A DNA stretch of 13,574 bases. Source: a bacterium. Its GTDB lineage: Bacteria; Blakebacterota; Blakebacteria; Blakebacterales; Blakebacteraceae. A program made the position numbers and the translations under genes. The stretch spans positions 1 to 13,574 of the forward strand of contig JALGWK010000027.1 in the NCBI GenBank assembly GCA_025774205.1, given 5' to 3'. Position 1 is the stretch's first letter; the number at the start of each line of letters is the position of its first letter. A model generated the notes under the pieces. That model had not been told where the DNA came from and did not search any database. It saw only the letters and a list, made by a program, of their open reading frames with translations. Positions 1-13,574 of the stretch are shown in pieces.

Positions 1-792
1 GGCGGCCACCTGGTCCTCAATATCGTCGACACCCCGATCAAGTGCCCGGTGGCGCCGCTCGAGTTCATCTTCCTGGCCGACTGGTTCCTGCACGAGCATG
101 GACTGCGGGACAAGGTGGAGATCACCTTCACCACCCCCCTGCCGGAGGTGTTCACCAAGCCGCGGGCGTCGGCCTTCCTCGGCAACCTGCTCGAGGAACG
201 CCGGATCAACGTCGAGACCGAGTACCTGATCGAGGAGGCCGATCCGGAGAAGAAGGTGATCCGGGCCTTCGACGGCCGCGAAGTGCCCTTCGACCTGCTG
301 GTGACGATTCCGCTGAACATGGGGAGCGAGGTCATCGAGCGCTCCGACATGGGGGACGACCTCAACTACGTGCCGACCGAGAAGCACACCCTGCGGCACA
401 AGACCTTCGAGAACATCTTCGTCCTGGGTGACGCGACCGACCTGCCGACCTCGAAGGCCGGCTCGGTGGCGCACTTCCAGTCCGAGTCGTTTATCGATAA
501 TTTCCTGCGCTACATCGACGGGATGGAACTGCTGCCCACCTTTGACGGCCACTCCAACTGCTACATCGAGACCGGCTACGGCAAGGGCACCCTGATCGAC
601 TTCAACTACGATGTCGAGCCCCTGCCCGGGAAGTTCCCCCTGCCCGGCCTTGGTCCATTCTCTCTGCTGGAAGAATCGCGAGTGGACCACTGGGGCAAAC
701 TGATGTTCCGCTGGATTTACTGGCACCTGCTCCTGAAGGGCAAGGAACTCCCTATCCCGGTCCGGATGAGCATGGCCGGCAAGCGGCTTTAA
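1..792 (+). CDS. Sulfide:quinone oxidoreductase-like FAD flavoprotein, C-terminal part (5' end outside window)
   Basis: The reading frame is open from base 1, so only the last 263 residues are present. The family is two-Rossmann FAD flavoproteins that oxidise sulfide or related sulfur species and pass electrons to membrane quinone. Visible support: a KCPVAPLE stretch (Cys15 of the fragment) matching the region of the catalytic cysteine in sulfide:quinone oxidoreductases; a VLGDATDLPTSKAG segment (about 141-154), the usual C-terminal FAD-binding motif; a second cysteine at 187 (SNCYIETG), where these enzymes carry the other redox cysteine; and an aromatic, amphipathic tail (WGKLMFRWIYWHLLL, about 211-225) suited to peripheral membrane attachment. 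The GTG at base 49 is not the start, because homology continues upstream of it. It leads a tight operon with DUF1641, DsrC-like and DsrE-like genes, supporting a sulfur role. The exact substrate (sulfide, polysulfide or a protein persulfide) cannot be read from sequence. Confidence 0.88.
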   Translation, partial: GGHLVLNIVDTPIKCPVAPLEFIFLADWFLHEHGLRDKVEITFTTPLPEVFTKPRASAFLGNLLEERRINVETEYLIEEADPEKKVIRAFDGREVPFDLLVTIPLNMGSEVIERSDMGDDLNYVPTEKHTLRHKTFENIFVLGDATDLPTSKAGSVAHFQSESFIDNFLRYIDGMELLPTFDGHSNCYIETGYGKGTLIDFNYDVEPLPGKFPLPGLGPFSLLEESRVDHWGKLMFRWIYWHLLLKGKELPIPVRMSMAGKRL

Positions 793-808
793 ACTGGAGG
801 GCACCGAG

Positions 809-1549
809 ATGACGACCATGACAGTCGAAGACTCGCTGCAGGAGATCACGGAGCAGCTCACGCAGCTGAACGCCCGGGTCGACTACCTGAGTGAGCGGGC
901 CCGGATCGATCAGAACCGCTGGGAAACGGTAGAGGATCTCGCCGCCGACCTGAAGCTGGTGGGCCAGAGCGCTTTCGAAGGCGCGGTCGAAGAACTGAGC
1001 GACCTCGATCCCGCCGTCTCTCTGGAGGACTCGCTCAGGCTCCTGCGTCGCCTGGCCGAGAACACCGGCAACCTCGAATGGACCCTGCAGCAGCTCGAGA
1101 GTATCCGCGATTTCGTTCGCGACGCAGGGCCGATCGCGACCTACGCCTTCGGTGCCGCGACTGAGAAGTTCGAGGAACTCGACCGGATTGGTGTGTTCTC
1201 TTTCGGCCAGGAGGCCTGGCGCATCGTCCAGATCATCCTGACGAGTTTCACCCCCGAGGACGTCCGCGCCCTGGGAGACAACGTGGTGCTCATCCTCAAC
1301 ACCGTGAAGGGGATGACCCAACCCGAGGTCATGCACATGCTCGGCAACCTGACCGGCGCTTACCGGCAGGCCGAAGCGACTTCGGAAGAGATAAAGACGG
1401 GGACCTTCGCCCTGCTGAAGCAGATGCGGGATCCCGAGGTCCGGCGCGGTCTGGCCGTGACCATGCAGATGCTGAAAGGCGTCGCGGGCGGACCCGCCCC
1501 CGTCGCCGGTGAGAACGAACGTATCGAACCGACACCTGACGTCGAATAA
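809..1549 (+). CDS. DUF1641 domain-containing protein
   Basis: A soluble, acidic, mostly helical protein of 246 residues with no cysteine, so it cannot itself carry a persulfide. The N-terminal 50 residues look like a coiled coil (QEITEQLTQLNARVDYL). A KGMTQPEVMHMLGNL segment at about 167-181 resembles the short conserved core of DUF1641. The tail (about 228-246) is proline- and acid-rich and looks disordered. The start at 809 follows a TGGAGG ribosome-binding site at 795-800; an in-frame ATG at 818 is a less well spaced alternative. It begins 16 bases after the flavoprotein gene and ends 20 bases before the DsrC-like gene. DUF1641 proteins are known to neighbour SQR-like flavoproteins and, in other bacteria, formate dehydrogenase genes; no biochemical role is established to my knowledge. 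A scaffold or partner for the flavoprotein is my inference. Confidence 0.85.
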   Translation: MTTMTVEDSLQEITEQLTQLNARVDYLSERARIDQNRWETVEDLAADLKLVGQSAFEGAVEELSDLDPAVSLEDSLRLLRRLAENTGNLEWTLQQLESIRDFVRDAGPIATYAFGAATEKFEELDRIGVFSFGQEAWRIVQIILTSFTPEDVRALGDNVVLILNTVKGMTQPEVMHMLGNLTGAYRQAEATSEEIKTGTFALLKQMRDPEVRRGLAVTMQMLKGVAGGPAPVAGENERIEPTPDVE

Positions 1550-1569
1550 GACGAGGAGGAACAGGAACC

Positions 1570-1884
1570 ATGGCAACACTGGAAGTTGCAGGAACCGCGC
1601 TGGAACTCGATGACGACGGATTCCTGGTGAACATGGATGAATGGTCGAAGGAAGTCGCGGAGGAGCTCGCAAAGGCCGACGAGATCTCCCTGACCGACCG
1701 GCACTGGGAGGTCATCGAATTCGTCCGTAAATGGTACGCCGAGAAAGACGAGTCCCCCACCCTGCGCAGGATAACCAAGGTGGGCGGCATTCCGACCAAG
1801 GAACTCTACCAGCTTTTCCCCGACGGCCCGGGCAAGAAGGTCGCCCGCATCGCCGGAACCCCGAAGCCCGAAGGATGTGTCTGA
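1570..1884 (+). CDS. TusE/DsrC-family sulfur relay protein with a single conserved cysteine
   Basis: A small protein of 104 residues with the full DsrC/TusE pattern: LDDDGFLVNMDEWS near 13-26, LTDRHWEVIEFVRKWY at about 41-56, PTLRRITK near 64-71 and the C-terminal arm ending PKPEGCV. Family members carry sulfur as a persulfide or trisulfide on the penultimate cysteine, here Cys103. True DsrC of dissimilatory sulfur metabolism has a second cysteine eleven residues earlier; here that position is Ala92 (VARIAG), so the protein is TusE-like or a regulatory homologue and cannot form the DsrC intramolecular disulfide. A strong ribosome-binding site, GAGGAGGA at 1553-1560, precedes the ATG. Its neighbours are an SQR-like flavoprotein, DUF1641 and DsrE-like genes, not tRNA-thiolation genes, so a role in sulfur oxidation or delivery is more likely than tRNA modification. 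Family certain, role inferred. Confidence 0.92.
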   Translation: MATLEVAGTALELDDDGFLVNMDEWSKEVAEELAKADEISLTDRHWEVIEFVRKWYAEKDESPTLRRITKVGGIPTKELYQLFPDGPGKKVARIAGTPKPEGCV

Positions 1885-1923
1885 GACACCGGGCCACAAT
1901 CTGCCTGAAAGGATCAGCGTACG

Positions 1924-2397
1924 ATGAGTGAAACCAAAAGTACCCGCAAGATCGCCATCATCTGCTCGAAGGGAACGCTCGACATGGCGTACCCGGGGCT
2001 GGTGCTGGCCAACGCCGCCCGCCAGGCCGGGATCGACGCCGTACTCTTCTTCACCTTCTGGGGACTCGATATTGTCACGAAGAAGAAGAACAGCAAGATC
2101 AAGGTGACCCCGGTCGGCAATCCCGCCATGGGTATGCCGAACCTGGTCGGAATTATCCCCGGTATGACAACGATGGCCACCTCGATGATGAAGAAGAAGA
2201 TCGAGGGCCTTGATATCCCACCGATCGACGAGTTCATCGAGATGATCCACGACGCCGGCGTGAAGCTCTACGGCTGCCGGATGTCGGTCGACATGATGGG
2301 TCTCACGGAGGATGACCTGGTCCCTCAGCTCGAGGGAGTCATCACCGCCATGGACTTCATGGATATCTCCGAAGGCGCCCAGACGATCTTCGTGTAG
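1924..2397 (+). CDS. DsrE/DsrF/DrsH-like sulfurtransferase-family protein
   Basis: A 157-residue protein of the DsrE3-like type. Visible features are the beta-strand and turn IAIICSKGTLD with Cys14, the FFTFWGLDIV segment (about 42-51), a Met-rich region NPAMGMPNLVGIIPGMTTM (66-84), and the signature YGCRMSVDMMG with Cys118, the cysteine position that accepts sulfane sulfur in characterised DsrE-family carriers. There is no signal peptide. The hydrophobic stretches belong to the Rossmann-like core, so it should be cytoplasmic. The ATG at 1924 follows AAAGGA at 1908-1913. It is the last gene of the sulfur operon, 39 bases after the DsrC-like gene and just before a duplicated terminator. DsrE3 and TusE/DsrC proteins typically exchange persulfide, so the two probably act as a relay. 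Family assignment is firm; direction of transfer is unknown. Confidence 0.9.
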   Translation: MSETKSTRKIAIICSKGTLDMAYPGLVLANAARQAGIDAVLFFTFWGLDIVTKKKNSKIKVTPVGNPAMGMPNLVGIIPGMTTMATSMMKKKIEGLDIPPIDEFIEMIHDAGVKLYGCRMSVDMMGLTEDDLVPQLEGVITAMDFMDISEGAQTIFV

Positions 2398-2460: not shown

Positions 2461-2496
2461 GCGCCCCTCGCCACTCCGTGCCGGGGGCTTTTCTTT
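2444..2496 (+). repeat. 17-base direct repeat forming the 3' halves of the two terminators
   Basis: GCCGGGGGCTTTTCTTT occurs at 2444-2460 and again, identically, at 2480-2496, offset by 36 bases. The match covers the descending stem arm and T-run of both terminators, as expected if one arose by local duplication of the other. Confidence 0.85.
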
Positions 2497-2497
2497 T
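2463..2497 (+). terminator. Rho-independent terminator 2 (tandem copy)
   Basis: A second hairpin directly after the first: GCCCC at 2463-2467 pairs GGGGC at 2484-2488, then TTTTCTTTT at 2489-2497. Its 3' arm and T-run repeat terminator 1 exactly over 17 bases. Confidence 0.7.
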
Positions 2498-2561
2498 CTC
2501 ACCATCTCCGGTATCGGCTACCATCCTGACCTCAACCGGTGATCGTGACCGACCAACCATC

Positions 2562-2565
2562 GAGG
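2562..2565 (+). promoter_or_regulatory. Ribosome-binding site deciding the DUF4838 lipoprotein start
   Basis: GAGG at 2562-2565 sits 8 bases before the ATG at 2574. This favours that ATG over the in-frame GTG at 2478, which lies inside the second terminator and would put 32 residues ahead of the signal peptide. Confidence 0.6.
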
Positions 2566-2573
2566 TACCCGAC

Positions 2574-4859
2574 ATGACCAACCGTCCCCGGATCCCGTTC
2601 CTTCTTCCGATCATCATCCTGGTCCTCCTTACCGCCTGTTCCAGCCGGACCGCCCTTGAACTGACCAACGGAGGAGCCAGCAACTACCGGATCGCACTCT
2701 CCCCCAACGCGACCGATATCGACCGGCAGGCGGCTGAAGTCCTTCAGCAGTACCTTGAACGGATCTCGGGCGCCCGACTGCCGATCGTCGTCGATGGGAG
2801 CTCGCCCGCCAGCGGGCCCCTCATCCTGATCGGCAGCGCCCGTACACAGTCGGACACCTTCCTGGCGGTCGACTGGGCTGCCCTCGAGGAAGACGGCTTC
2901 CACATCGTCACCTTCCGTGACGACCTCTTCATCGCCGGCGGCACGGAGAAGGGTACCCTCTATGGCGTCCACACGCTGCTGGAGACGTATCTCGGCTGCA
3001 GGATGTACAGCCCCGATGTGACGGTAGTCCCCGAGCAGGCATCGATCCACCTGCCTGCTATCGACGACACCCGGGTCCCGGTGATCCGGTTCCGATCAAC
3101 CCATTACGACCACGCCTACGAACAGCCCTACCGCGACTGGCACAAACTGGACGACGGCAACGTCGACCGATTCCTCGAGTGGAGCACCAGGGTTCACACC
3201 TTCAACCGGCTGGTGCCGCCGGAGCAGTACTTCAAGGATCACCCGGAGTACTTCTCCGAGATCAACGGCATCAGAGTCCCCGACACCCAGCTCTGTCTCA
3301 CCAATGAGGATGTCTTCCAGATCATCGTGGAACGGCTGCGGGAGATGATGGCTGAACACCCCGATGTGAAATACTGGTCGGTGAGCCAGAACGACACCTA
3401 CGGCAACTGCCAGTGCGAGGAGTGCCGGGCGCTCGACGAGCAGGAGGGCAGTCCGATCGGTTCCCTGCTCACCTTCGTGAATCGGGTCGCGGCCGAGTTC
3501 CCCGACCGGATCATCACCACCCTGGCCTACCAGTACACCCGCGTGGCGCCGAAGAATCTGAGACCGGCAGAGAATGTCTGCATCACCCTCTGCAGCATCG
3601 AGTGCGACCGGAGCGGGTCACTTCCGGCCGATCCCGACAACGCCTCCTTCGCCGACGACGTCCGTGACTGGTCGGCGATTGCCAGCCACCTCTACATCTG
3701 GGATTACGTGGTCCAGTTCCGGAACCTGGTGAGCCCCTTCCCCAACTTCCATGTCCTGCAGCCGAATATCCGCTTCTTCGTCGAGAACGGGATCGATGCC
3801 ATCTTCGAACAGGGCAGCGGCGGCATCAGGGGTGAGTTCACTGACCTCCGATCGTACCTGATCGCCAAGCTCCTCTGGGATCCCGATGCCGATGTCGACG
3901 CCATCATCGATGACTTCCTCTCCGGGTACTACGGCGAGGCGGCCCCGTACCTGCGACGGTACATCGATCTCATGACCCGTTCGCTGCTCCGCTCCGGCGA
4001 GCGGCTCGACATCTACGGTAATCCCTACACCCCGGTGGAGGGGTACCTCTCCCCCCGTCTGATGGCGAAATACGAACGCCTCTTCGATCAGGCCGTGACC
4101 GCAGTTGCCGAAGCTCCCGATGTACTGGAGCGGGTGAGGTTCGCCCGTCTCCCCCTCGAATACGCCAGACTGGAGCAGGCGAAGCGATACGGCACCGGCA
4201 AATGGGGCTTCTTCGTCCTCGACGATTCAGGTACCTGGTCGGTCCGGCCGGAAATGCGTCAACGTCTCGATGATTTCATCACGATGTGCGAAGAGGCCGG
4301 CTACAACCGGCTCCATGAGCACGGCGGGCCGCCCATGGAGTACCGGCAGGTCCTGCTGGAGCTGTTCGACAAGAGCATGGAGAGCCACCTGGCCCTGTTC
4401 AGACCGGTTACCGTGAACACGGAGTGGAGCCCGACCTACCCTGCCAACGGCGTCGACACGTTCACCGATGGCCTGAAAGGGATCCCCGATTACACCTGCA
4501 ACTGGCTCGGCTTCGAGGGACACGACATGGAGGTGTTGATCGACCTGCAGGAACCGACCACGGTGAGTGAGATCTCGACCGACTTCCTCCAGGTGTTCTA
4601 CTCCTGGGTGTGGCTGCCGACAGAGGTTGTCTATTCGGTATCTGACGATGGAGAGCGCTTCACAGAGGTGGCCCGGCTCCTGAACACTGTCTCAGACCAG
4701 CGTGACGGCTCTTTCATCGAGACCTTCGAAGCCCGGTTCGATCCGGTCGAAGCCCGATACGTGAAAGTGGAAGCAGTGAATCGGAAGATCTGCCCCGAAT
4801 GGCACCAGGGGCACCCGGGCAGGTCGTGGATCTTCGCCGACGAGATCATCGTGCGATAG
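2574..4859 (+). CDS. DUF4838 domain-containing lipoprotein with C-terminal discoidin-like domain
   Basis: A 761-residue exported protein. The N-terminus is a lipoprotein signal: hydrophobic residues 9-19, then LTAC with the lipidated Cys22. Residues about 35-170 match the alpha-glucuronidase-like N-terminal fold common in this family (AAEVLQQYLERISGARLPI, then IAGGTEKGTLYGVHTLLE). Residues about 180-480 form the DUF4838 core, with PEYFSEING and the family hallmark SVSQNDTYGNCQCEEC, holding Asp274 and cysteines 279, 281 and 284. A helical region follows, then about 612-761 resembles a discoidin/F5-8-type-C or CBM32-like sandwich (NTEWSPTYPANGVDTFTDG). DUF4838 proteins are thought to act on polysaccharides, but I know of no firmly established activity. 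Surface anchoring and a carbohydrate-binding module suggest glycan capture or hydrolysis. It is isolated from the upstream operon by terminators. Confidence 0.87.
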   Translation: MTNRPRIPFLLPIIILVLLTACSSRTALELTNGGASNYRIALSPNATDIDRQAAEVLQQYLERISGARLPIVVDGSSPASGPLILIGSARTQSDTFLAVDWAALEEDGFHIVTFRDDLFIAGGTEKGTLYGVHTLLETYLGCRMYSPDVTVVPEQASIHLPAIDDTRVPVIRFRSTHYDHAYEQPYRDWHKLDDGNVDRFLEWSTRVHTFNRLVPPEQYFKDHPEYFSEINGIRVPDTQLCLTNEDVFQIIVERLREMMAEHPDVKYWSVSQNDTYGNCQCEECRALDEQEGSPIGSLLTFVNRVAAEFPDRIITTLAYQYTRVAPKNLRPAENVCITLCSIECDRSGSLPADPDNASFADDVRDWSAIASHLYIWDYVVQFRNLVSPFPNFHVLQPNIRFFVENGIDAIFEQGSGGIRGEFTDLRSYLIAKLLWDPDADVDAIIDDFLSGYYGEAAPYLRRYIDLMTRSLLRSGERLDIYGNPYTPVEGYLSPRLMAKYERLFDQAVTAVAEAPDVLERVRFARLPLEYARLEQAKRYGTGKWGFFVLDDSGTWSVRPEMRQRLDDFITMCEEAGYNRLHEHGGPPMEYRQVLLELFDKSMESHLALFRPVTVNTEWSPTYPANGVDTFTDGLKGIPDYTCNWLGFEGHDMEVLIDLQEPTTVSEISTDFLQVFYSWVWLPTEVVYSVSDDGERFTEVARLLNTVSDQRDGSFIETFEARFDPVEARYVKVEAVNRKICPEWHQGHPGRSWIFADEIIVR

Positions 4860-5049
4860 CGTTCAGAGGATTCGGTCAGAACATGGTTCCGATTCGCGGT
4901 CACAGATCGGGATCGACCTTCGTTTCACCTCCGAGGCTGGAAGTACCCGACCTTCTCACCTCAGAACTCATACATCCATCTCTGCGGCGTAACCGTACGT
5001 CCTCCCTCTTTCTGCGGCCATGTGGGAGGCCCAGGAAGGTGTATAACCC

Positions 5050-6609
5050 ATGAGGTTATCATTACTACGGGCCGGATCGATAACCGGCCTTCTGATCCTT
5101 CTTCTGGCAGGTGCTGCATCCGGCCAGATGATCCCGATCAAGACTGTACCGGTCGCGACCGGTGATCAGTTCCTCTTCATCCCGTCCCGATCGACTGCCA
5201 TGGGAGGAGTGTCCATCGCGATGGACGATCCTCTGCTGGATCCGTTCACGAATCCCGCTAAAAGCAGTCGAATCCGCAGGTCGTTCCTGTTCGGTGGTTC
5301 AACACAATATTCGACGACCGGGGACGATGGAGGCGGCCGGACCATGCCCGTTGGCGGTCTTGCCCGAATGGGGAAATGGGCCATCGGAGCGATCGTGGCC
5401 CTCCAGAGACTCTCCCCGGCTGAACAATATTTCCGGTGGTATCATGCCCAGGAAGTGAACGCCTCCCTATTCCCCAAGAAATCACCCGGTTCACCGATCC
5501 TGAACCATGTTCCGAGGACTGACCACCCGGCCAGAAACCGATACCTGACGGGTGTGATCGGGAGAACCATTCTGGATGATCGGATATCGCTTGGTGCCGG
5601 TATCTCAGTAGCCGATCTGCGGGCTATCGACGGGGTGGACCTGCTCTATGATGGCAGCATACGCATTCTTCAGGACGGTTACTCCACCGATTACCGCCTG
5701 GGGATGATGGCCGATCTCGGCAGGAACAGTGAGGTCGAATTCCTCTGGTTCCAGAATCATCTGGATATGATCCACGACGTGTACTACCCGGAACTCTCTC
5801 CAATCACCTATCAGTTCTGGCCGGGATTCCCGACCGATTCGAACCTGAAGCGGAATTCAGACCATACACGGACATCAGGTCTGCATTGTGGTTATTCCCG
5901 CCCCCTTCGCGACGATGCCTGGCGGATCGGAGGGATCGTCACAATCAACTGGAAATCACATCCCAAGATCCCTGAATACGAACTGCAGTTCCTGCCTGCA
6001 ATCCCCCGGGATCCGGGGTATTCACGCGCATACAACCTGGGAATCGGGTTATCCGGCGCCGGCAGATCCAGTCGATTCGGGATCGATTTCATCTTCGAAC
6101 CGGTCTGGACGGACACCTGGGGAGTCGCTGACCAGGCTATGGAAACCAGAAGCGGAGGCGTGATCCAGCCGGGCGGCAAAACGGTCGAGAACTTCTTCAC
6201 CTTCCTGAACGCACACCTGCGATTGGGCCTGGCGATCGGAGATGAATCGGGAGGGCTTCAGTTCGGTCTCCACATCCACTCCATCAGCTATCAGCTGGAC
6301 CAGCTGGACAACAGTCGCGAGCGGTGGCGAAGACAGAATGAATCATGGATCGAATGGAGTCCGAGCCTGGGTGCACACCTCGATATCGCCGACTTCCAGG
6401 TCCGCTACCTCGGGCGATTGAAGCTGGGTACCGGTATACCGAAGGGGTGGCCCGAGGGGGCGTGGTGGAATCCGATCTCCCTGAACGGCTCACTGAGCAT
6501 CAGTCCCTCCGGTCCCGATTTCCTCGTAGCGCCGACCGGTCCGTACCGTTTCGAGAAGACGCTCATCGCGACCCACCAGGTAGCGCTGGTGATCCCGTTC
6601 GGTCGCTGA
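5050..6609 (+). CDS. Outer-membrane beta-barrel protein, PorV/OmpP1-like
   Basis: A 519-residue exported protein with a signal peptide (MRLSLLRAGS, hydrophobic core 11-22, likely cut near AASG-Q at 25/26). After a short N-terminal segment comes FIPSRSTAMGGVSIAMDDPLLDPFTNPA (about 43-70), the N-terminal plug pattern of FadL/OmpP1-like barrels such as PorV and UPF0164 proteins. The rest is alternating polar and hydrophobic strands rich in Gly, Tyr and Trp, ending in HQVALVIPFGR, a plausible last strand though it does not end in an aromatic residue. AGGAAGG at 5033-5039 precedes the ATG. The 190-base gap upstream includes a weak hairpin (CCTCCC 5001-5006 with GGGAGG 5024-5029). It lies downstream of the DUF4838 gene on the same strand. 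Substrate and function are unknown; a fatty-acid-type channel or a secretion-associated barrel are both possible. Confidence 0.72.
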   Translation: MRLSLLRAGSITGLLILLLAGAASGQMIPIKTVPVATGDQFLFIPSRSTAMGGVSIAMDDPLLDPFTNPAKSSRIRRSFLFGGSTQYSTTGDDGGGRTMPVGGLARMGKWAIGAIVALQRLSPAEQYFRWYHAQEVNASLFPKKSPGSPILNHVPRTDHPARNRYLTGVIGRTILDDRISLGAGISVADLRAIDGVDLLYDGSIRILQDGYSTDYRLGMMADLGRNSEVEFLWFQNHLDMIHDVYYPELSPITYQFWPGFPTDSNLKRNSDHTRTSGLHCGYSRPLRDDAWRIGGIVTINWKSHPKIPEYELQFLPAIPRDPGYSRAYNLGIGLSGAGRSSRFGIDFIFEPVWTDTWGVADQAMETRSGGVIQPGGKTVENFFTFLNAHLRLGLAIGDESGGLQFGLHIHSISYQLDQLDNSRERWRRQNESWIEWSPSLGAHLDIADFQVRYLGRLKLGTGIPKGWPEGAWWNPISLNGSLSISPSGPDFLVAPTGPYRFEKTLIATHQVALVIPFGR

Positions 6610-6622
6610 GGATAGAGGAGGA

Positions 6623-7603
6623 CTACTCGTGCCCCTGGATGGCGTGGGCCACGTAGAGTTCCTCGAGCCGGTCGAGTTCTTCAGATGAAAGAAGCACTTC
6701 CGGGGCGTGGAGGGCGGCCTCGAGCTGCTCCGGCTTCGTGATCCCGATGATCGGCGCCACCACGCCCGGCTGATGAAGGAGCCAGGCTAGCGCCACGGCG
6801 GTCGGATCCTCTCCCCGTTCACCGGCGACCTCGACGAGCCGGTCGATGACGTCGAAGTCATTGAGCGGCTCATAGATCTTCTTCCCGTAGTCGTCGAGCT
6901 TCGCCCGCAGGGTCGGCTCCAGTTCCTCCCGGGTCCTGGTACCGGTCAGGAGTCCCCGTGCCAGCGGGCTCCAGGGGATGATCCCCACCCCCTCCTGCAC
7001 ACAGAGGGGGTTCATCTCCCGCTCTTCCTCCCGGTAGATGAGATTGTAGTGGTTCTGCATCGTTTCGAACCGCTCGAGCCCGAGCATGTCGGAGAGGTGG
7101 AGGGACTCGGCGAACTGGTGGGCCCACATGCTGGAGGCGCCGATATGGTGCACCTTCCCCTGCCGGACAAGGTCGTCGAGCGCCCGCAGAGTCTCCTCGA
7201 TCGGGACGGTATAGTCCCAGCGGTGGATCTGGTAGAGATCGATATGGTCGGTCCCCAGCCGCTTCAGCGAGCGCTCCACCTGTGACATGATATGTTTGCG
7301 CGAGAGCCCGCCCTCGTTCGGTCCCTCCCCCATGGTGAAGTAGACCTTGGTGGCCAGTACGATCCGGTCGCGGTCGGCGAAGTCGGCCAGTGCCCGACCG
7401 ATGACCTCTTCACTCACTCCCATCGAGTACATGTTGGCGGTGTCGAAGAAGTTGATCCCCTCCTCCACCGCTTTCCTGATGATGACCCGCGACTCCTCCT
7501 CCTCCAGCACCCACTCGCGCCACTTCTTCGTGCCGAACGACATGCAGCCGAGACAGACGGGGCTCACCTTGAGGCCGGTCGAGCCGAGATTGACGTACTC
7601 CAT
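6623..7603 (-). CDS. Aldo/keto reductase
   Basis: A 326-residue cytoplasmic oxidoreductase with the complete NAD(P)H-dependent TIM-barrel pattern. The catalytic tetrad is visible as Asp54 and Tyr59 (FFDTANMY), Lys86 (LATK) and His127 (QIHRWD). LGSTGLKVSPVCLGCMSFG opens the protein, IPWSPLARGLLTG lies mid-way, and the C-terminal cofactor region includes APIIGITKPEQLEAAL. It resembles the Tas/YajO/YghZ-like group that reduces sugar or small aldehydes and ketones, but the substrate is not predictable. AGGAAGG just upstream of the ATG supports the start at 7603. It begins 45 bases after the small membrane protein gene on the same strand, so it may share its transcript with the YeiH-type gene. Its stop is only 13 bases from the convergent beta-barrel gene and I see no terminator hairpin between them. 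Confidence 0.93.
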   Translation of the reverse strand: MEYVNLGSTGLKVSPVCLGCMSFGTKKWREWVLEEEESRVIIRKAVEEGINFFDTANMYSMGVSEEVIGRALADFADRDRIVLATKVYFTMGEGPNEGGLSRKHIMSQVERSLKRLGTDHIDLYQIHRWDYTVPIEETLRALDDLVRQGKVHHIGASSMWAHQFAESLHLSDMLGLERFETMQNHYNLIYREEEREMNPLCVQEGVGIIPWSPLARGLLTGTRTREELEPTLRAKLDDYGKKIYEPLNDFDVIDRLVEVAGERGEDPTAVALAWLLHQPGVVAPIIGITKPEQLEAALHAPEVLLSSEELDRLEELYVAHAIQGHE

Positions 7604-7648
7604 CGATCGTCATCCTTCCTGTTCAGGTCGGTCGGTAGCGGAGAAAAA

Positions 7649-7948
7649 TCAGGGCTTTTCCTGCCCGTTCGAGCCGGAGTACTTCAACGAGTCATGCAGC
7701 AGCAGCCATGAGGGAGCGTACTCCTCGGAGTCGGACCACCAGTACGCTCCGGCGTCCATACCGCGCGCCTCAATGAAGGCCGTCAGTTCCTCGACCTGTC
7801 TGATCTTCGAGAGGAGGGGATCGAGACCGAACATGAAGAGGAGGATCGCGATGATGCCGAGACCGAGTCGCAGCCAGCCACCTGAGGTGGCCGATCCGCT
7901 GACGTTCTTCCTCTCCATTCCCTCCCGATTCTTCCTGTCATCCATCAT
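7649..7948 (-). CDS. Small single-helix membrane protein, unknown function
   Basis: A 99-residue protein that I do not recognise. The N-terminal 24 residues are hydrophilic and basic (DDRKNREGMERKN), followed by one membrane helix at about 25-42 (WLRLGLGIIAILLFMFGL), then a soluble tail with a Trp-rich motif GAYWWSDSEE at about 67-76 and APSWLLLHD. The tail probably faces the periplasm, from the positive-inside rule. I chose the ATG at 7948; an in-frame GTG at 7954 lies immediately after the stop of the YeiH-type gene and would add two residues. Either way the start is within 6 bases of that stop, which points to translational coupling. Its position and membrane topology suggest an accessory subunit of the transporter, but that is inference. 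Confidence 0.75.
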   Translation of the reverse strand: MMDDRKNREGMERKNVSGSATSGGWLRLGLGIIAILLFMFGLDPLLSKIRQVEELTAFIEARGMDAGAYWWSDSEEYAPSWLLLHDSLKYSGSNGQEKP

Positions 7949-7954
7949 GAACAC

Positions 7955-9682
7955 CTAAATCGCCGCCGTGATCTTCGTGAAAACAACGTAGAACATCAGG
8001 TACGCCATCGAGAGGGTCAGGATGAGGTTGAAACTCTGTCCACAGACGTAGAGGATGAGCGGCTTGCCACCCTTGAAGTACTCCTTCAGTTCCCTGAAAT
8101 TGGTCGCCAGACCGATGCTGACGAAAGCGAGGCAGAAGAACCAGCCGCGGAGGGTCTTGGTGAGCCCCCCGATCACTCCCTGGTCGATCAGGGTGTATCC
8201 GGCATCCGGTCCAAGGGCGGCATAGATCGCGGAGAACAGGATCGACGCCCCGATGAATCCGATCACGAACTTCGGGAAGCGATGCCAGATCTCCCAGATG
8301 CTCACCCGCTCACCCTCCTGCCGATCGACCCGGGCGGTCCAGTAGAGAGCCACGAAGAAGGCTATCACGCCGATCAGCACGTTCTGGATCATCTTGATCG
8401 TGGCGGCTACATAGAGGGCCCTCTCACCCAGGAAGGCACCGGCAGCAGCGACCGCGCCGGTGGCATCGATCGTTCCCCCCATCCAGGCCCCACCGAGGAT
8501 CTCCGGGATACCGACCGCTTTGATGAAAGCTGGCATGGCGATCATCATGACGGCGGTGAAGACCAGCGACATGCCGACCGCCAGGGTGAGCTCCTCCTTC
8601 TTCGCCCGGCAGGCGGCGGCGGTGGCGATGGCCGCCGAGACTCCGCAGACCGACATGTCGGCCGAGATGGTGATGTTCAGCGTCTTGGAGGGGATCTTGA
8701 TCACCTTCTGGCCGAAGATGTAGGTGGATACCAGCACGATCGGTGTGACAATCCAGGAGACGAAGATCCCCGGCACCCCGATGGCCAGGATCTTCCCGAA
8801 GAGGATCTCGGCGCCGAGGAGGACCAGGCCGGTTTTGATGAAGTACTCGGTCTGGACCGCCGGCTTGACCCATTCAGGAGTACCGACGGTGTTGCTGATC
8901 AGGAGACCGAAGAGGATTGCCCAGGCGGCGTAGCCGATCCCGTAGGCCTTCATGGTCGCCTGCTCCGCCGCGATATAGGCCAGGATCGCGATCCCGAAGA
9001 CGAAGAGGAAGCCGACCAGGAATTTCCGGAACGACCGGCCCAGGGCGATGGTGCCGATCCCGAAGAAGATGCCCAGCGCGATCGCCAATCCGATCAGGTT
9101 GACGATCTGGTTGTGCGACGAGATCGTGGTCTTCTTCTTCGCGCTCGAAGCCTCGGTCGCCAGGGCGCGCCACTCGTCGATCGCGGCCACCGCGGCCGCG
9201 TTCAGGGCTTCATCCCCGAAACCGGTCATTGCGGCCGTGGTCTCGGCCGAGACCGCCCGTTGTCGGGCCACGGTGACTTCCGTCAGTAATTCATTGTACC
9301 GGGGCTGGGCGGCCGTGTTCTTCCGTTCGGCTCCGGCCTCCGAGAGCATCAGTGATTCGAGCGGGTTGTTTTTCCAGCCGTGCGGCTTCCTGATGAATCC
9401 GGCCAGGCGTTTGGCCCGCAAGGCCGAGGAAGCCTTGATCCCCGACTTGGTGTTCCCCGCCTCGTACCAGGTCACGGTCCGGAAGGGCGCCCGATCGGCC
9501 TCGTCCGCCATGATCCGGTTGGCCTCGGCGAACTGCTCCCGCATCCCCGCCGGTGGACGCGAGAGGAAGAACACCGTACCGACCAGCAGGACGAGGAGCG
9601 CGAGCCAGATGGCCCAGTAATCCTCGAGCCGGAAGAGTTCGGCCCACCCCGTGACCTCTTCCGATGGCTGTGATTCAGGCAT
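7955..9682 (-). CDS. YeiH-family putative sulfate exporter, long form
   Basis: A 575-residue integral membrane protein of the YeiH/Cons_hypoth698 family, annotated elsewhere as putative sulfate exporters. Family hallmarks are LKTG-like [16 protein letters not shown] (281-296), [14 protein letters not shown] (about 344-357) and [15 protein letters not shown] (401-415), within about ten hydrophobic helices from residue 191 onward. Unlike the short form of around 350 residues, it starts with one helix at about 23-41 followed by a hydrophilic, mostly helical segment at about 42-188 before the conserved transporter core. AAGGA about 8 bases before the ATG supports the start. It lies 65 bases downstream of the GH172 gene and is coupled to the small membrane protein gene. 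Sulfate export is a family-level prediction with limited direct proof; sulfite or organosulfonates are alternatives. It may link to the sulfur oxidation operon at the other end of the window. Confidence 0.87.
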
Positions 9683-9747
9683 GATGCTGTTCCTTAGCGG
9701 GTGTTGGTGGCAGGTTCTCCGTTCTCAGTCCCCTCTCTCATGGTATA

Positions 9748-11762
9748 TCACGGTGTCGGTCTGATGACCAGAACACCGTCGGGATCAGGGATGCGGAGGT
9801 AATACCCCCAGCCGCCGTAGTCGTCGCCGACCTTGATGAGCAGGGTATTCACTCCCTTCCTGAGAGAGAGCCGGACATGGTCCTGGTCCGGTTCGGCCGG
9901 CCGGTGCAGCACATGCTCATGGACCCGCTCGCCGTTCAGCCAGAGACCAACCCAGTCATCGGAACCGAGCAGGCAGTCGACGACGCGGGCGTCGGGACTC
10001 TCGATCCAGACTGCGCCGTACACACAGCTCAGTTCGTTCGGGGTGAAGAGAGCGTCCAGGTTGACGTAGCCGCTCTCATCGGTCTCTATCAGGCGCCAGC
10101 CGACCTCCCGGGAGTTCATCCCTTCATACGTTTGCGAGAGATCGATCTCCTGTTCGGGGGGGTACGGAATATCGAGACCGACCGTGAGTTCGCTCCCCTC
10201 CTGCCCCGGGTTGTCGAAGGGACCGATCACCTGCCAGCGGGTTACGAAGTTCATGACCGGCTCGATGCTCACCGCGTCGAAGCCGAACACCTGCCTGCCG
10301 GTGGCGGGTGCGGGACCGACCGATTCGACCTCCAGCGATGCCGTGCCGGGTTCCAGCCTGACCTCGCCCAGTTCGATCCGACCGGAGGGAGTGACCTCGG
10401 TATCATTCAGGTCTATCACCCCGCCGAGGAACTCCCCGTTCACCCGGAACCTGACCCTCCCGCTATCGGGTCCCTTCGTGAGATAGAGCGCGATCGTGTA
10501 GCGGTCGATCGTCTCGACCGGCAGTGTCCAGCTGACCGGTCCAACCTCCGACAGTTCCATCCATATCGACTTCCCCCCACTCCAGTCGACGCCATGGCGC
10601 TGCATGTCCTCGAGAGGTAGATCCATCGTCCGGTGTATTCCTTCACCATCAGGGACTCAGCCTCTATCGCACCATCCGGCACCAGCACCCGTAGCGGGAT
10701 CCGGGCGTTGCCTGCCGGCATCTCCGGGAAGGGCGCGTGCGGTTCCATCTGGTACCAATAGGCGGTACTGGCGTAATCCCCCACCTCGGTGTTGGCGTGG
10801 CCGTGTTCGATCGTGAACCTCAGGGAACGGATCGTGAACCTCAGGGAACGGGTGAAGGGGATGGCGTCACCGAGATGATAACGGTAGGCGGCGATCCGGG
10901 CCCGCTCCTCGTCCTTGATGATCAGGCCGTGGAAGGGACCGGCGTAGATTCCCTCGTTGAAATACCAGCCGCTGGTGAAGTAGTCCTCGGTTCCGGTGCC
11001 GTACATGCACGGTTCCTCGGCTCCATCCACCCAGACCATTTCGTCTCCTTCGAGGAACCACAGCTCCCCGTTGTAGCCCTGCATGTTCAGGTTCACCCCG
11101 ACCAGGTGCCCTTCCCCCTCGGCTTCGAGGATGGTGTAGTTCCGGTCGGGATCGGTCTTCGGCTCCCGGCGCCACTGGGCATGGAAATAGGCCACGTCAT
11201 CCTCGAGCGGCTGGTGCATCTCCTGGTAGTCGATCTGGTAGTAGAAGGCGTCGACCTGCTGACCGGTTTCGTTCACCACCTCGATACGGGCCCGCTCGCG
11301 GAAGGGCATCGGCCAGTATGAGTAGAATCCACCACTGGAGATCCCAAGGTAGTACGAGACGTAGTGGACCTTGTCGAAGCCGGTGCCGAAGAAGTCCCCT
11401 ACCGGCACCTCCACGCTCGGTGTCTCCTCATCATCCCAGTACATCCGCAGGAGGATCCGCCGGAGGTAATGCGGATCGCGGCTCGAGATGGTGATCCAGA
11501 TACGCGTTATCACCCCCGGCCCCCCGATATCGGCCAGGATCGCGCTCGTTCCCGGAGCCATCACCAGCCGGTCGGCGTTGCCGCCGGTGGTGTCGTTGGA
11601 GGCGATCTGGGCGATCTGCCTGAAGGTGCTCTGCTTCAAGTAGGGGAGCCTGCCGGGATCGATCAGGTTCTCCAGGGCTCCCTGGGCCCGGACCGCTCCG
11701 GTGATGGCAAGCATGAGGATCATGACCGAAACAACAGATCGACCGATACAATTCCTGCTCAT
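9748..11762 (-). pseudogene. DUF2961/GH172 glycoside hydrolase, frameshifted
   Basis: The gene reads in one frame from ATG 11762 through about residue 380, then continues as sensible protein in another frame down to the TGA at 9748. A one-base deletion (or equivalent) between about 10656 and 10600 explains this; restored length would be about 670 residues. The first part has a signal peptide (1-26, cut near VRA-Q) and the GH172 core: PVGDFFGTGF (120-129), GTGTEDYF (255-262) and EHGHANTEVGDY to AYWYQ (319-338). The second part is beta-rich, with a WQVIGPFDN module typical of C-terminal sandwich domains in such enzymes. Past residue 380 the first frame turns Arg/Ser-rich, as expected of an out-of-frame read. 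GH172 enzymes act on arabinofuranosides or fructose dianhydrides; the substrate here is unknown. A 21-base tandem duplication also lies in the core. Sequencing error remains possible. Confidence 0.82.
10809..10850 (-). repeat. 21-base exact tandem duplication inside the GH172 gene
   Basis: The unit at 10809-10829 is repeated without a mismatch at 10830-10850. In the protein it yields RSLRFTI twice in a row (305-311 and 312-318), just before the conserved EHGHAN motif. Family members normally show one copy of this strand. The length is a multiple of three, so the frame is kept. Confidence 0.95.
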
Positions 11763-11830
11763 CCTGGATCCTTCCGGTACTCTCCCTCGTCAAGACGCGC
11801 CGGTGTGTCGCGGTCCGGAACGGAAGAAGT

Positions 11831-11858
11831 GTGACAGGTCGGTACGTACCCTTATATG
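11831..11858 (+). promoter_or_regulatory. Candidate sigma70-type promoter for the arsenate reductase gene
   Basis: GTGACA at 11831-11836 (5 of 6 matches to the -35 consensus) and TATATG at 11853-11858 (4 of 6 to the -10) are 16 bases apart, and the region is locally AT-richer than its surroundings. The spacer contains a perfect 10-base palindrome, GGTACGTACC (11841-11850), a possible operator. It lies about 50 bases before the arsC start in the divergent gap with the GH172 gene. Confidence 0.4.
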
Positions 11859-11910
11859 CTGTTCACATGGTGAAGAAAGTGAGTCTATCAAAGGGGAAGC
11901 CGCCTTATCC

Positions 11911-12345
11911 ATGAACAACACGATCCGCATACTCTTCCTCTGTACCGGGAATTCCTGCCGTTCGCAGATGGCTGAAGGATTTGCGCGTGTCCTGGGGGGA
12001 GAGGATGTTGAGGCACACTCCGCCGGCATCGAGGCACACGGGAAGAATCCCCGGGCAATAGCAGCAATGGCAGAGGCGGGAATCGATATAACCGGTCAGG
12101 AATCAACCATCGTGACCGATGAGATGATTGCCCGGTCTGACCTGGTTGTGACTGTCTGCGGCCACGCTGATGAACACTGTCCGGTACTGCCGGATAGTGT
12201 GCGGAAGCTCCACTGGCCGCTTGACGACCCGGCCAGGGCCACCGGCTCGGAAGAGGAGATAACAGCTGTCTTCCTGGAGGTCCGGGATGAGATACGGAAA
12301 AGGGTAGTCAGCCTTCTTCACGAAATGGATATATCGATTCGCTGA
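11911..12345 (+). CDS. arsC: Arsenate reductase ArsC, thioredoxin-coupled type
   Basis: A 144-residue cytoplasmic enzyme of the low-molecular-weight phosphatase fold that reduces arsenate to arsenite. The P-loop CTGNSCR (Cys11 to Arg17) holds the nucleophilic Cys11, and the redox relay cysteines Cys83 and Cys90 are in TVCGHADEHCPVLP, the spacing of the thioredoxin-linked Staphylococcus pI258 type. HWPLDDPA (101-108) supplies the conserved Asp region. Plain tyrosine phosphatases lack the two extra cysteines, so the assignment is strong. AAGGGGAA at 11891-11898 lies 12 bases before the ATG, somewhat far; I see no better start. The gene stands alone: no arsR, arsB or acr3 gene is within the window. 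Its codon use looks a little less GC-biased than that of the neighbouring minus-strand genes, which could reflect transfer. It converges with the porin gene over 28 bases. Confidence 0.94.
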   Translation: MNNTIRILFLCTGNSCRSQMAEGFARVLGGEDVEAHSAGIEAHGKNPRAIAAMAEAGIDITGQESTIVTDEMIARSDLVVTVCGHADEHCPVLPDSVRKLHWPLDDPARATGSEEEITAVFLEVRDEIRKRVVSLLHEMDISIR

Positions 12346-12373
12346 CCTGGCTGAACCGCAGGATCTCGAATGT

Positions 12374-13369
12374 CTACCACTTCCAGTTGAAGGTGATCCG
12401 GAACATGCTGGTCGGATCGGCGGTGCCGATCTTCGTCTGGTGGAAGTTGGGGATGATGCTCAATCCCTTGCCGGCGCGGTAGTCGAGACCGACCATAAGC
12501 AGGGTCATGGTGTCGTCATCCGTGCTGGTGTCGGGATCCCAGTTCATGTACGTACCGAGCAGCGTGAGGGGCGATCCCGGGAGCGCGAAGCGGCCGAAGC
12601 CCCAGATACCCGATCCGTCCTGGTCGAGGGTGAAGCGGTAGTTCGACTGGGTGGTGTATGAACCGCCGACCGCGAAACCATCGACCTCATACCCCACCGA
12701 GAGATCCATGGTAGTGGTATTCTCCATATCCCCTTCAGTGGTCGGGTCGTCATCGGGATCGAAGCCGTTCATCCCGTAGTGAGCCGTGATGAGCAGCCCG
12801 TCGATCGGGGTGAAGACCCCCTGAATCTCATACGCTTTTCCGAAGGAGTCATCATCCAGGTTGCTGTAGCCGTTACCGTTACTGAGCATGACATTCACCG
12901 CGATCATCTCGTTCAGCCGGAACCGGGCCATGATCCCGAGATCGGCCGAAGAGCGCAGCTTGTAGTAGTCCTGCATGGTCATCTCGACGCCGCGATAGGC
13001 CCAGACCTCCTCGATGGTGCCGAAGAGGACCGTACCCATCATGCCGGCGCGAAGACTCACCCGGCCGGAGGCCTTCCAGTCGGCATAAACATGCTTGATG
13101 AAGAGACGATACTTCCCATCACCATCCTGCTTCACATCGGTGCGGAAGCGACCGGTGATGCCATCACTCATCTGCAGGTCGTAGGTGAAGTAAACCCGCC
13201 GGAAGCTGTGGGTCATCACATTGCTGACATCATCGCTCAGTCCCTGCGAGAGGTCGAAGTAGGCCTTCCCCTTGAGGGTGCCATTGCCCTCGACCTGCGC
13301 CCGGACCTGCGTCCCCATGGCGAGGATCACAATTATCGCCGTGGCAGTGGTAAGAACTCTTCGGAACAT
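12374..13369 (-). CDS. Outer-membrane beta-barrel protein, probable porin
   Basis: A 331-residue exported protein. The signal peptide (MFRRVLTTATAIIVILAMGTQVRAQ) is cut near A24/Q25. The mature part is made of alternating strands with short turns and Asp-rich loops (DDDSFG, FDPDDDPTTEGD, DPDTSTDDD), and the last residues FRITFNWKW form a typical terminal strand ending in an aromatic residue, the BAM recognition signal. Acidic external loops suggest a calcium-binding or cation-favouring porin, though no specific family can be named with certainty. I chose the ATG at 13369 because AAGGAG sits 8 bases upstream and the signal peptide begins right there; an in-frame GTG at 13453 would add 28 unconvincing residues. 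It faces the arsenate reductase gene across a 28-base gap without a clear terminator. Confidence 0.82.
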   Translation of the reverse strand: MFRRVLTTATAIIVILAMGTQVRAQVEGNGTLKGKAYFDLSQGLSDDVSNVMTHSFRRVYFTYDLQMSDGITGRFRTDVKQDGDGKYRLFIKHVYADWKASGRVSLRAGMMGTVLFGTIEEVWAYRGVEMTMQDYYKLRSSADLGIMARFRLNEMIAVNVMLSNGNGYSNLDDDSFGKAYEIQGVFTPIDGLLITAHYGMNGFDPDDDPTTEGDMENTTTMDLSVGYEVDGFAVGGSYTTQSNYRFTLDQDGSGIWGFGRFALPGSPLTLLGTYMNWDPDTSTDDDTMTLLMVGLDYRAGKGLSIIPNFHQTKIGTADPTSMFRITFNWKW

Positions 13370-13378
13370 CCGGTTCGT

Positions 13379-13384
13379 CTCCTT
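13379..13384 (-). promoter_or_regulatory. Ribosome-binding site deciding the porin start
   Basis: AAGGAG on the minus strand, 8 bases before the ATG at 13369. It places the start directly at the signal peptide. Confidence 0.7.
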
Positions 13385-13574
13385 GCAAGGCCGGTTTTCC
13401 TGTCGGTCGCCTTGAACCAATCCGGTGTTACACCTGATCGGGAATATCGTCACAATCGACCCTCCCGGACACCTTCACTATCGAGCCGTGATCTGACGGT
13501 CACCTGACCGGCTCAACACCCTGCCATAGTGTGAAAACCTTGCAGTAACAGGGGTTGACAGGGGAATCAGGGTG

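Follow-up and report, generated by a model that had tools for sequence, protein, structure and literature searches.

A recurrent operon of type III SQR, DUF1641, one-cysteine DsrC and DsrE-like genes, present mostly in bacteria without dsrA

Gene content of the operon

The window, by which we mean the whole stretch of DNA that was analysed (13,574 bp), is the entire contig C50 of a 3.09 Mb genome comprising 527 contigs, and its SQR gene starts before base 1. The following features were located at its beginning:

1..792, forward strand: type III SQR fragment, comprising the last 263 of about 411 residues and truncated at the 5' side where the contig begins
43..45, forward strand: codon of the first invariant SQR cysteine (C163 of the full protein, residue 15 of the fragment)
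559..561, forward strand: TGC codon, read directly, of the second invariant SQR cysteine (C335, residue 187 of the fragment)
809..1549, forward strand: ForE-like DUF1641 protein, 246 aa, cysteine-free; PF07849, 38.4 bits (cut-off 21)
1570..1884, forward strand: DsrC/TusE family protein, 104 aa; PF04358, 125.5 bits, and TIGR03342, 109.5 bits
1876..1878, forward strand: codon of DsrC Cys103 (CysA position)
1924..2397, forward strand: DsrE-like protein (PF13686, DsrE2-like), 157 aa; PF13686, 136.3 bits
2275..2277, forward strand: codon of DsrE-like Cys118

The sequence-only reading had placed these four genes in one operon, and all of them were indeed found at these positions, in an order that recurs far beyond chance (see below). 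Gaps between consecutive genes are about 16, 20 and 39 bp, and GGAGG-like sites precede the DUF1641 and DsrC genes. The cysteines singled out earlier, Cys118 of the DsrE-like protein and Cys103 of DsrC, as well as the lack of cysteine in the DUF1641 protein, were confirmed in the translations.

The complete operon is present in a genome of the same genus (MAG Meg19_1012_Bin_119), on the 19 kb contig JALGVQ010000068.1 (L015/L022), where SQR has 411 residues; the window fragment is 96% identical to it. Codon differences between the two genomes fall mostly at third positions (67/78 in SQR, 35/43 in DsrC, 40/55 in the DsrE-like gene and 85/129 in DUF1641), which indicates that all four genes are real and under purifying selection. 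An intrinsic terminator 3' of the operon was considered and found unsupported, as four terminator-like sites occurred in the region against 1.8 expected. Further downstream (window 2478-13453), inspection of translations by eye pointed to ORFs resembling a lipoprotein (a large ORF), an aldo/keto reductase and an arsenate reductase, together with one for a large membrane protein.

The SQR flavoprotein

The window fragment aligned with residues 145-406 of model NF049943 (427 bits over 262 residues), and the full-length SQR of the same-genus genome scored 630 bits against a cut-off of 525, which identifies it as a type III SQR. The model takes its name from a selenoprotein subtype that bears an HxxU motif (PMC13188914). 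A selenoprotein reading of the window SQR was rejected, because the HxxU position (559-561) is occupied by a TGC cysteine codon. Both SQR cysteines were Cys in 82 of 82 aligned sequences, so that the protein belongs to the two-redox-cysteine SQRs. Human SQOR is the closest solved relative in sequence (profile E 1e-62) as well as in fold (Foldseek E 1e-29), with C163 aligned to the cysteine of the SQOR KCxxAP motif and C335 to the C-terminal cysteine of SQOR. The predicted structure is poor just past C335, residues 336-380 having pLDDT below 50. Published work suggests that SQRs of this type would oxidise sulfide: a two-cysteine type III SQR expressed in E. coli removed H2S (PMC10989961), and in Methylacidiphilum an operon of type III SQR, TusA and DsrE2 is induced by H2S (PMC10205796).

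The DUF1641 protein

The DUF1641 family profile matched ForE1 of structure 8rqz (E 2.8e-7), so that the protein, a member of PF07849, is related to ForE. Its structure prediction was of low confidence (pTM 0.29) and gave no fold match. In the Bacillus subtilis ForCE formate dehydrogenase, loss of ForE1 removes menaquinone coupling (PMC8808070). Given this role and the profile match, a quinone-coupling subunit is a more likely function of the DUF1641 protein than the scaffold that had been suggested from the sequence. Both ForCE and the operon set a DUF1641/ForE gene beside a quinone-reducing enzyme (PMC8808070), but the partner of ForE is a molybdenum formate dehydrogenase, while that of DUF1641 in the operon is SQR.

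The carrier proteins

The penultimate arm cysteine of DsrC was Cys in 80 of 80 aligned operon copies, as in the DsrC/TusE superfamily, while the CysB position was not Cys in any of the 80, which sets the protein apart from dissimilatory two-cysteine DsrC. With one cysteine, the operon DsrC cannot form the two-cysteine trisulfide made by DsrAB and hence fits a simple carrier. At locus L127, the operon DsrC ends with PKPASYV, Tyr replacing the penultimate Cys. Another DsrC variant, a 212-aa protein of two fused DsrC domains without the penultimate cysteine, is encoded at L020:9174-9812 (G000 contig C47).

As for the DsrE-like protein, Cys118 was Cys in 77 of 77 aligned sequences. The protein scored 125.6 bits on the DsrE2 equivalog NF047629, below its cut-off of 210, and is thus placed in the broader PF13686 family. 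DsrE2 of the A. vinosum type has two transmembrane helices (PMC12998232); in the operon protein a crude hydropathy test detected no clear ones (top 19-residue mean 1.29). TusA was detected in 7 of the 30 operon-bearing genomes checked, including that of the window. Gene order and cysteine conservation suggest that the two carriers may accept SQR sulfur.

Distribution of the operon

A contig scan, with SQR recognised by exact peptide patterns, yielded 80 named loci, which are related rather than independent and mostly labelled Bacteroidota. The order SQR-DUF1641-DsrC-DsrE-like was present in 74 of them; two lacked DUF1641 (Rhodothermaceae and Crocinitomix) and four ended at a contig edge. Draconibacterium, Labilibacter and Maribellus are among the named strains hosting the operon. 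Recurrence of the four genes together, usually without dsrAB, had been expected of a distinct pathway, and it is borne out by these loci and by the absence of dsrA from all 48 operon-bearing genomes checked outside the genus of the window. In L092 (4721-4921), the DsrE-like gene bears an apparent internal deletion leaving 66 aa, the operon being otherwise intact.

Genomes of the Bacteroidota phylum group, 296 in all, made up a second, better balanced sample. In 28 of these an SQR scored about 650 bits or higher, always with DsrC directly downstream (28/28) and always in the absence of dsrA (28/28). The SQR-DsrC gap was 35-106 bp in 20 genomes and 728-835 bp, leaving space for DUF1641, in the other eight; DUF1641 was accordingly absent from 20 of the 28 operons. 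Among 24 annotated loci, 20 had the order SQR-DsrC-DsrE-like and four the full four-gene order. Elsewhere among dsrA-negative Bacteroidota, DsrC exceeded its cut-off in only 3 of 220 genomes, two of them solely through short fragments like those found at contig edges (Fisher p for the SQR-DsrC association 6e-34, uncorrected for kinship).

This distribution bears on the possibility that a TusE-like DsrC and the DsrE-like protein supply SQR sulfur for biosynthesis, be it for the thiolation of tRNA or for some other acceptor. TusD and TusE relay sulfur to tRNA thiolation in E. coli, and the operon DsrC resembles TusE in having CysA only. However, it scored 77 on the TusE equivalog NF008562 (cut-off 191), and its near confinement to SQR-bearing genomes within the dsrA-negative Bacteroidota sampled would be odd for a housekeeping role in tRNA modification. 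We regard a biosynthetic supply as improbable.

In a domain-wide sample of 386 genomes, a related SQR was found in 21. The full operon occurred at eight loci (including the same-genus one) and SQR-DsrC-DsrE-like at three, while SQR-DUF1641 without adjacent DsrC was seen at another three (L169, L172 and L174); L168 was cut off early, and the remaining related SQRs had no DUF1641, DsrC or DsrE-like partners. On the SQR tree, the presence of DUF1641 requires four changes, at least three of them on well-supported branches. As SQR-DUF1641 occurs without DsrC and SQR-DsrC-DsrE-like is common without DUF1641, neither partner is strictly required. The system is modular: the core shared unit is SQR-DsrC-DsrE-like, in which SQR is joined by a carrier pair, and DUF1641 is optional. 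At L151, L152 and L153, a more distant SQR is immediately preceded by a weak match to the DUF1641 profile (20-32 bits).

Genomic context and dsr genes

Consistent with the sequence-only reading, no dsr or hdr gene lies inside the window. It had also been considered that the region upstream of base 1 might carry an rDsr or sHdr system of which the operon is the end. On the sister contig, an HTH_17-PocR regulator is located directly upstream of the operon instead, and none of the ORFs on this 19 kb contig was recognised as a dsr or hdr gene. No shdr genes were recognised on this contig or among the recurrent neighbours of the operon, and neither a rhodanese nor a persulfide dioxygenase adjoins the operon there.

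The proposal of a self-contained relay can be retained only in part. Judged from family searches, other contigs of the window's genome contain dsrA and dsrM, a partial aprA, genes for Qmo-like subunits and one for a two-cysteine DsrC. The sister genome contains dsrA and parts of dsrB and dsrK; next to its dsrB lie two candidate genes, one possibly DsrL-like and the other possibly DsrD-like (the latter matched no family model). Self-containment is thus supported only for the hosts outside the genus, by their lack of dsrA. Some of the dsrA-positive genomes in the Bacteroidota sample, probably green sulfur bacteria, carry a sister SQR beside a DsrN-like gene, followed by dsrC and dsrA. A paper on new FCB phyla reports Dsr and SQR genes in those phyla.

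It might be argued from the dsr, aprA and qmo-like genes and the two-cysteine DsrC of the host genus, and from the sister SQRs adjoining dsr genes, that in the host of the window the operon serves as a Dsr accessory which reoxidises sulfide and exchanges sulfur with canonical DsrC and DsrAB. The absence of dsrA from the 48 genomes outside the genus and the dsr-free operon contig of the sister genome argue against this, and we give it little credence.

Two kinds of neighbours recurred beside the operon: i) a divergent Crp/Fnr-type gene directly upstream, in 57 loci, and ii) a PhsA-like molybdoenzyme nearby, in 16 loci. As for i), these genes bear on a regulatory rather than sulfur-carrying DsrC, since some DsrC homologues have been proposed to act in regulation. 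With separate regulators present (PocR-type, MerR-type or divergent Crp/Fnr) and the arm cysteine almost invariant, such a role seems very improbable. As for ii), several of the 16 loci include FeS and NrfD subunits, and YeeE/TsuA-like transporters and rhodanese are also found near several of them. Together with the many operon hosts from anaerobic groups, this might indicate a reverse or mixed use, i.e. reduction or disproportionation of sulfur or polysulfide with a Psr/Phs-type molybdoenzyme, the carriers handling sulfane sulfur. However, the PhsA-like and associated genes adjoin a minority of loci, under ordinary conditions the reduction of a persulfide with menaquinol is energetically uphill, and an SQR of the same type removes H2S in E. 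coli (see above). Reverse use is therefore unlikely, if slightly less so than the biosynthetic and Dsr-accessory alternatives.

Proposed role of the operon

The reading we favour, and consider reasonably probable, is that SQR oxidises sulfide and its sulfane sulfur then goes to the DsrE2-like protein and DsrC, while DUF1641 makes the coupling to quinone more effective. According to this model, the two-cysteine type III SQR would oxidise toxic hydrogen sulfide at the membrane surface, two electrons passing from SQR through FAD to quinone (presumably menaquinone), while the sulfane sulfur would remain on the cysteine pair. From there, it would most likely be taken by a protein thiol, namely Cys103 on the flexible C-terminal arm of DsrC and/or Cys118 of the DsrE-like protein, any order of transfer between the two being presumed. 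The ForE-like DUF1641 protein, where present, would help SQR to reach and reduce quinone.

Human SQOR passes its sulfane sulfur to a small thiol. A broader version can be put forward tentatively, and we lean somewhat against it: a dsrAB-independent DsrC sulfide-oxidation pathway in which the arm cysteine is the dedicated protein acceptor of SQR sulfur, filling the role which the small thiol holds for SQOR, and DUF1641 is a general quinone-coupling subunit of unrelated dehydrogenases.

The familiar partner of DsrC is DsrAB. In the operon, gene order links a one-cysteine DsrC to an SQR across many genomes that lack dsrA, from which it follows that a DsrC gene alone is no evidence for Dsr metabolism; in most hosts, a DsrC-based sulfur route would probably work without the Dsr enzyme that DsrC normally serves. 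The operon allows a direct test of the sulfur acceptor of a bacterial SQR, and also of whether DUF1641 couples enzymes other than formate dehydrogenase to quinone.

Relation to known sulfur systems

Operons joining SQR to sulfur carriers are already known, and the DsrC/DUF1641 gene set is a new version of them. In Methylacidiphilum fumariolicum SolV, a type III SQR is likewise followed by carrier genes including DsrE2 (PMC10205796), but TusA is present there, whereas the window operon has DsrC and DUF1641. The yrkD-pdo cluster in B. licheniformis and the cst cluster in S. aureus combine SQR with DsrE- and TusA-type carriers (PMC9918477); unlike the operon, they possess rhodanese and persulfide dioxygenase and lack DsrC. 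Human SQOR shares its fold and both matched cysteines with the operon SQR, but uses small thiols and coenzyme Q and has no carrier-protein operon. No description of the four-gene operon was found in the open-licence PMC papers covered, a part of the literature that provides weak evidence of novelty. The rDsr/Dsr pathway also employs DsrC and DsrE-family proteins; the operon differs from it in its one-cysteine DsrC and in the absence of dsrA from most hosts.

Finally, a gene cluster was observed downstream of the SQR operon at L087 (12113-17227) and also at L092, L095 and L097; L087 and L095 were checked and both lack dsrA. The cluster contains two aminotransferase-V (cysteine-desulfurase-like) genes, a two-cysteine DsrC, a 210-aa membrane protein and a CCG-domain DsrK-like protein, along with a NifX-like small protein in L087.
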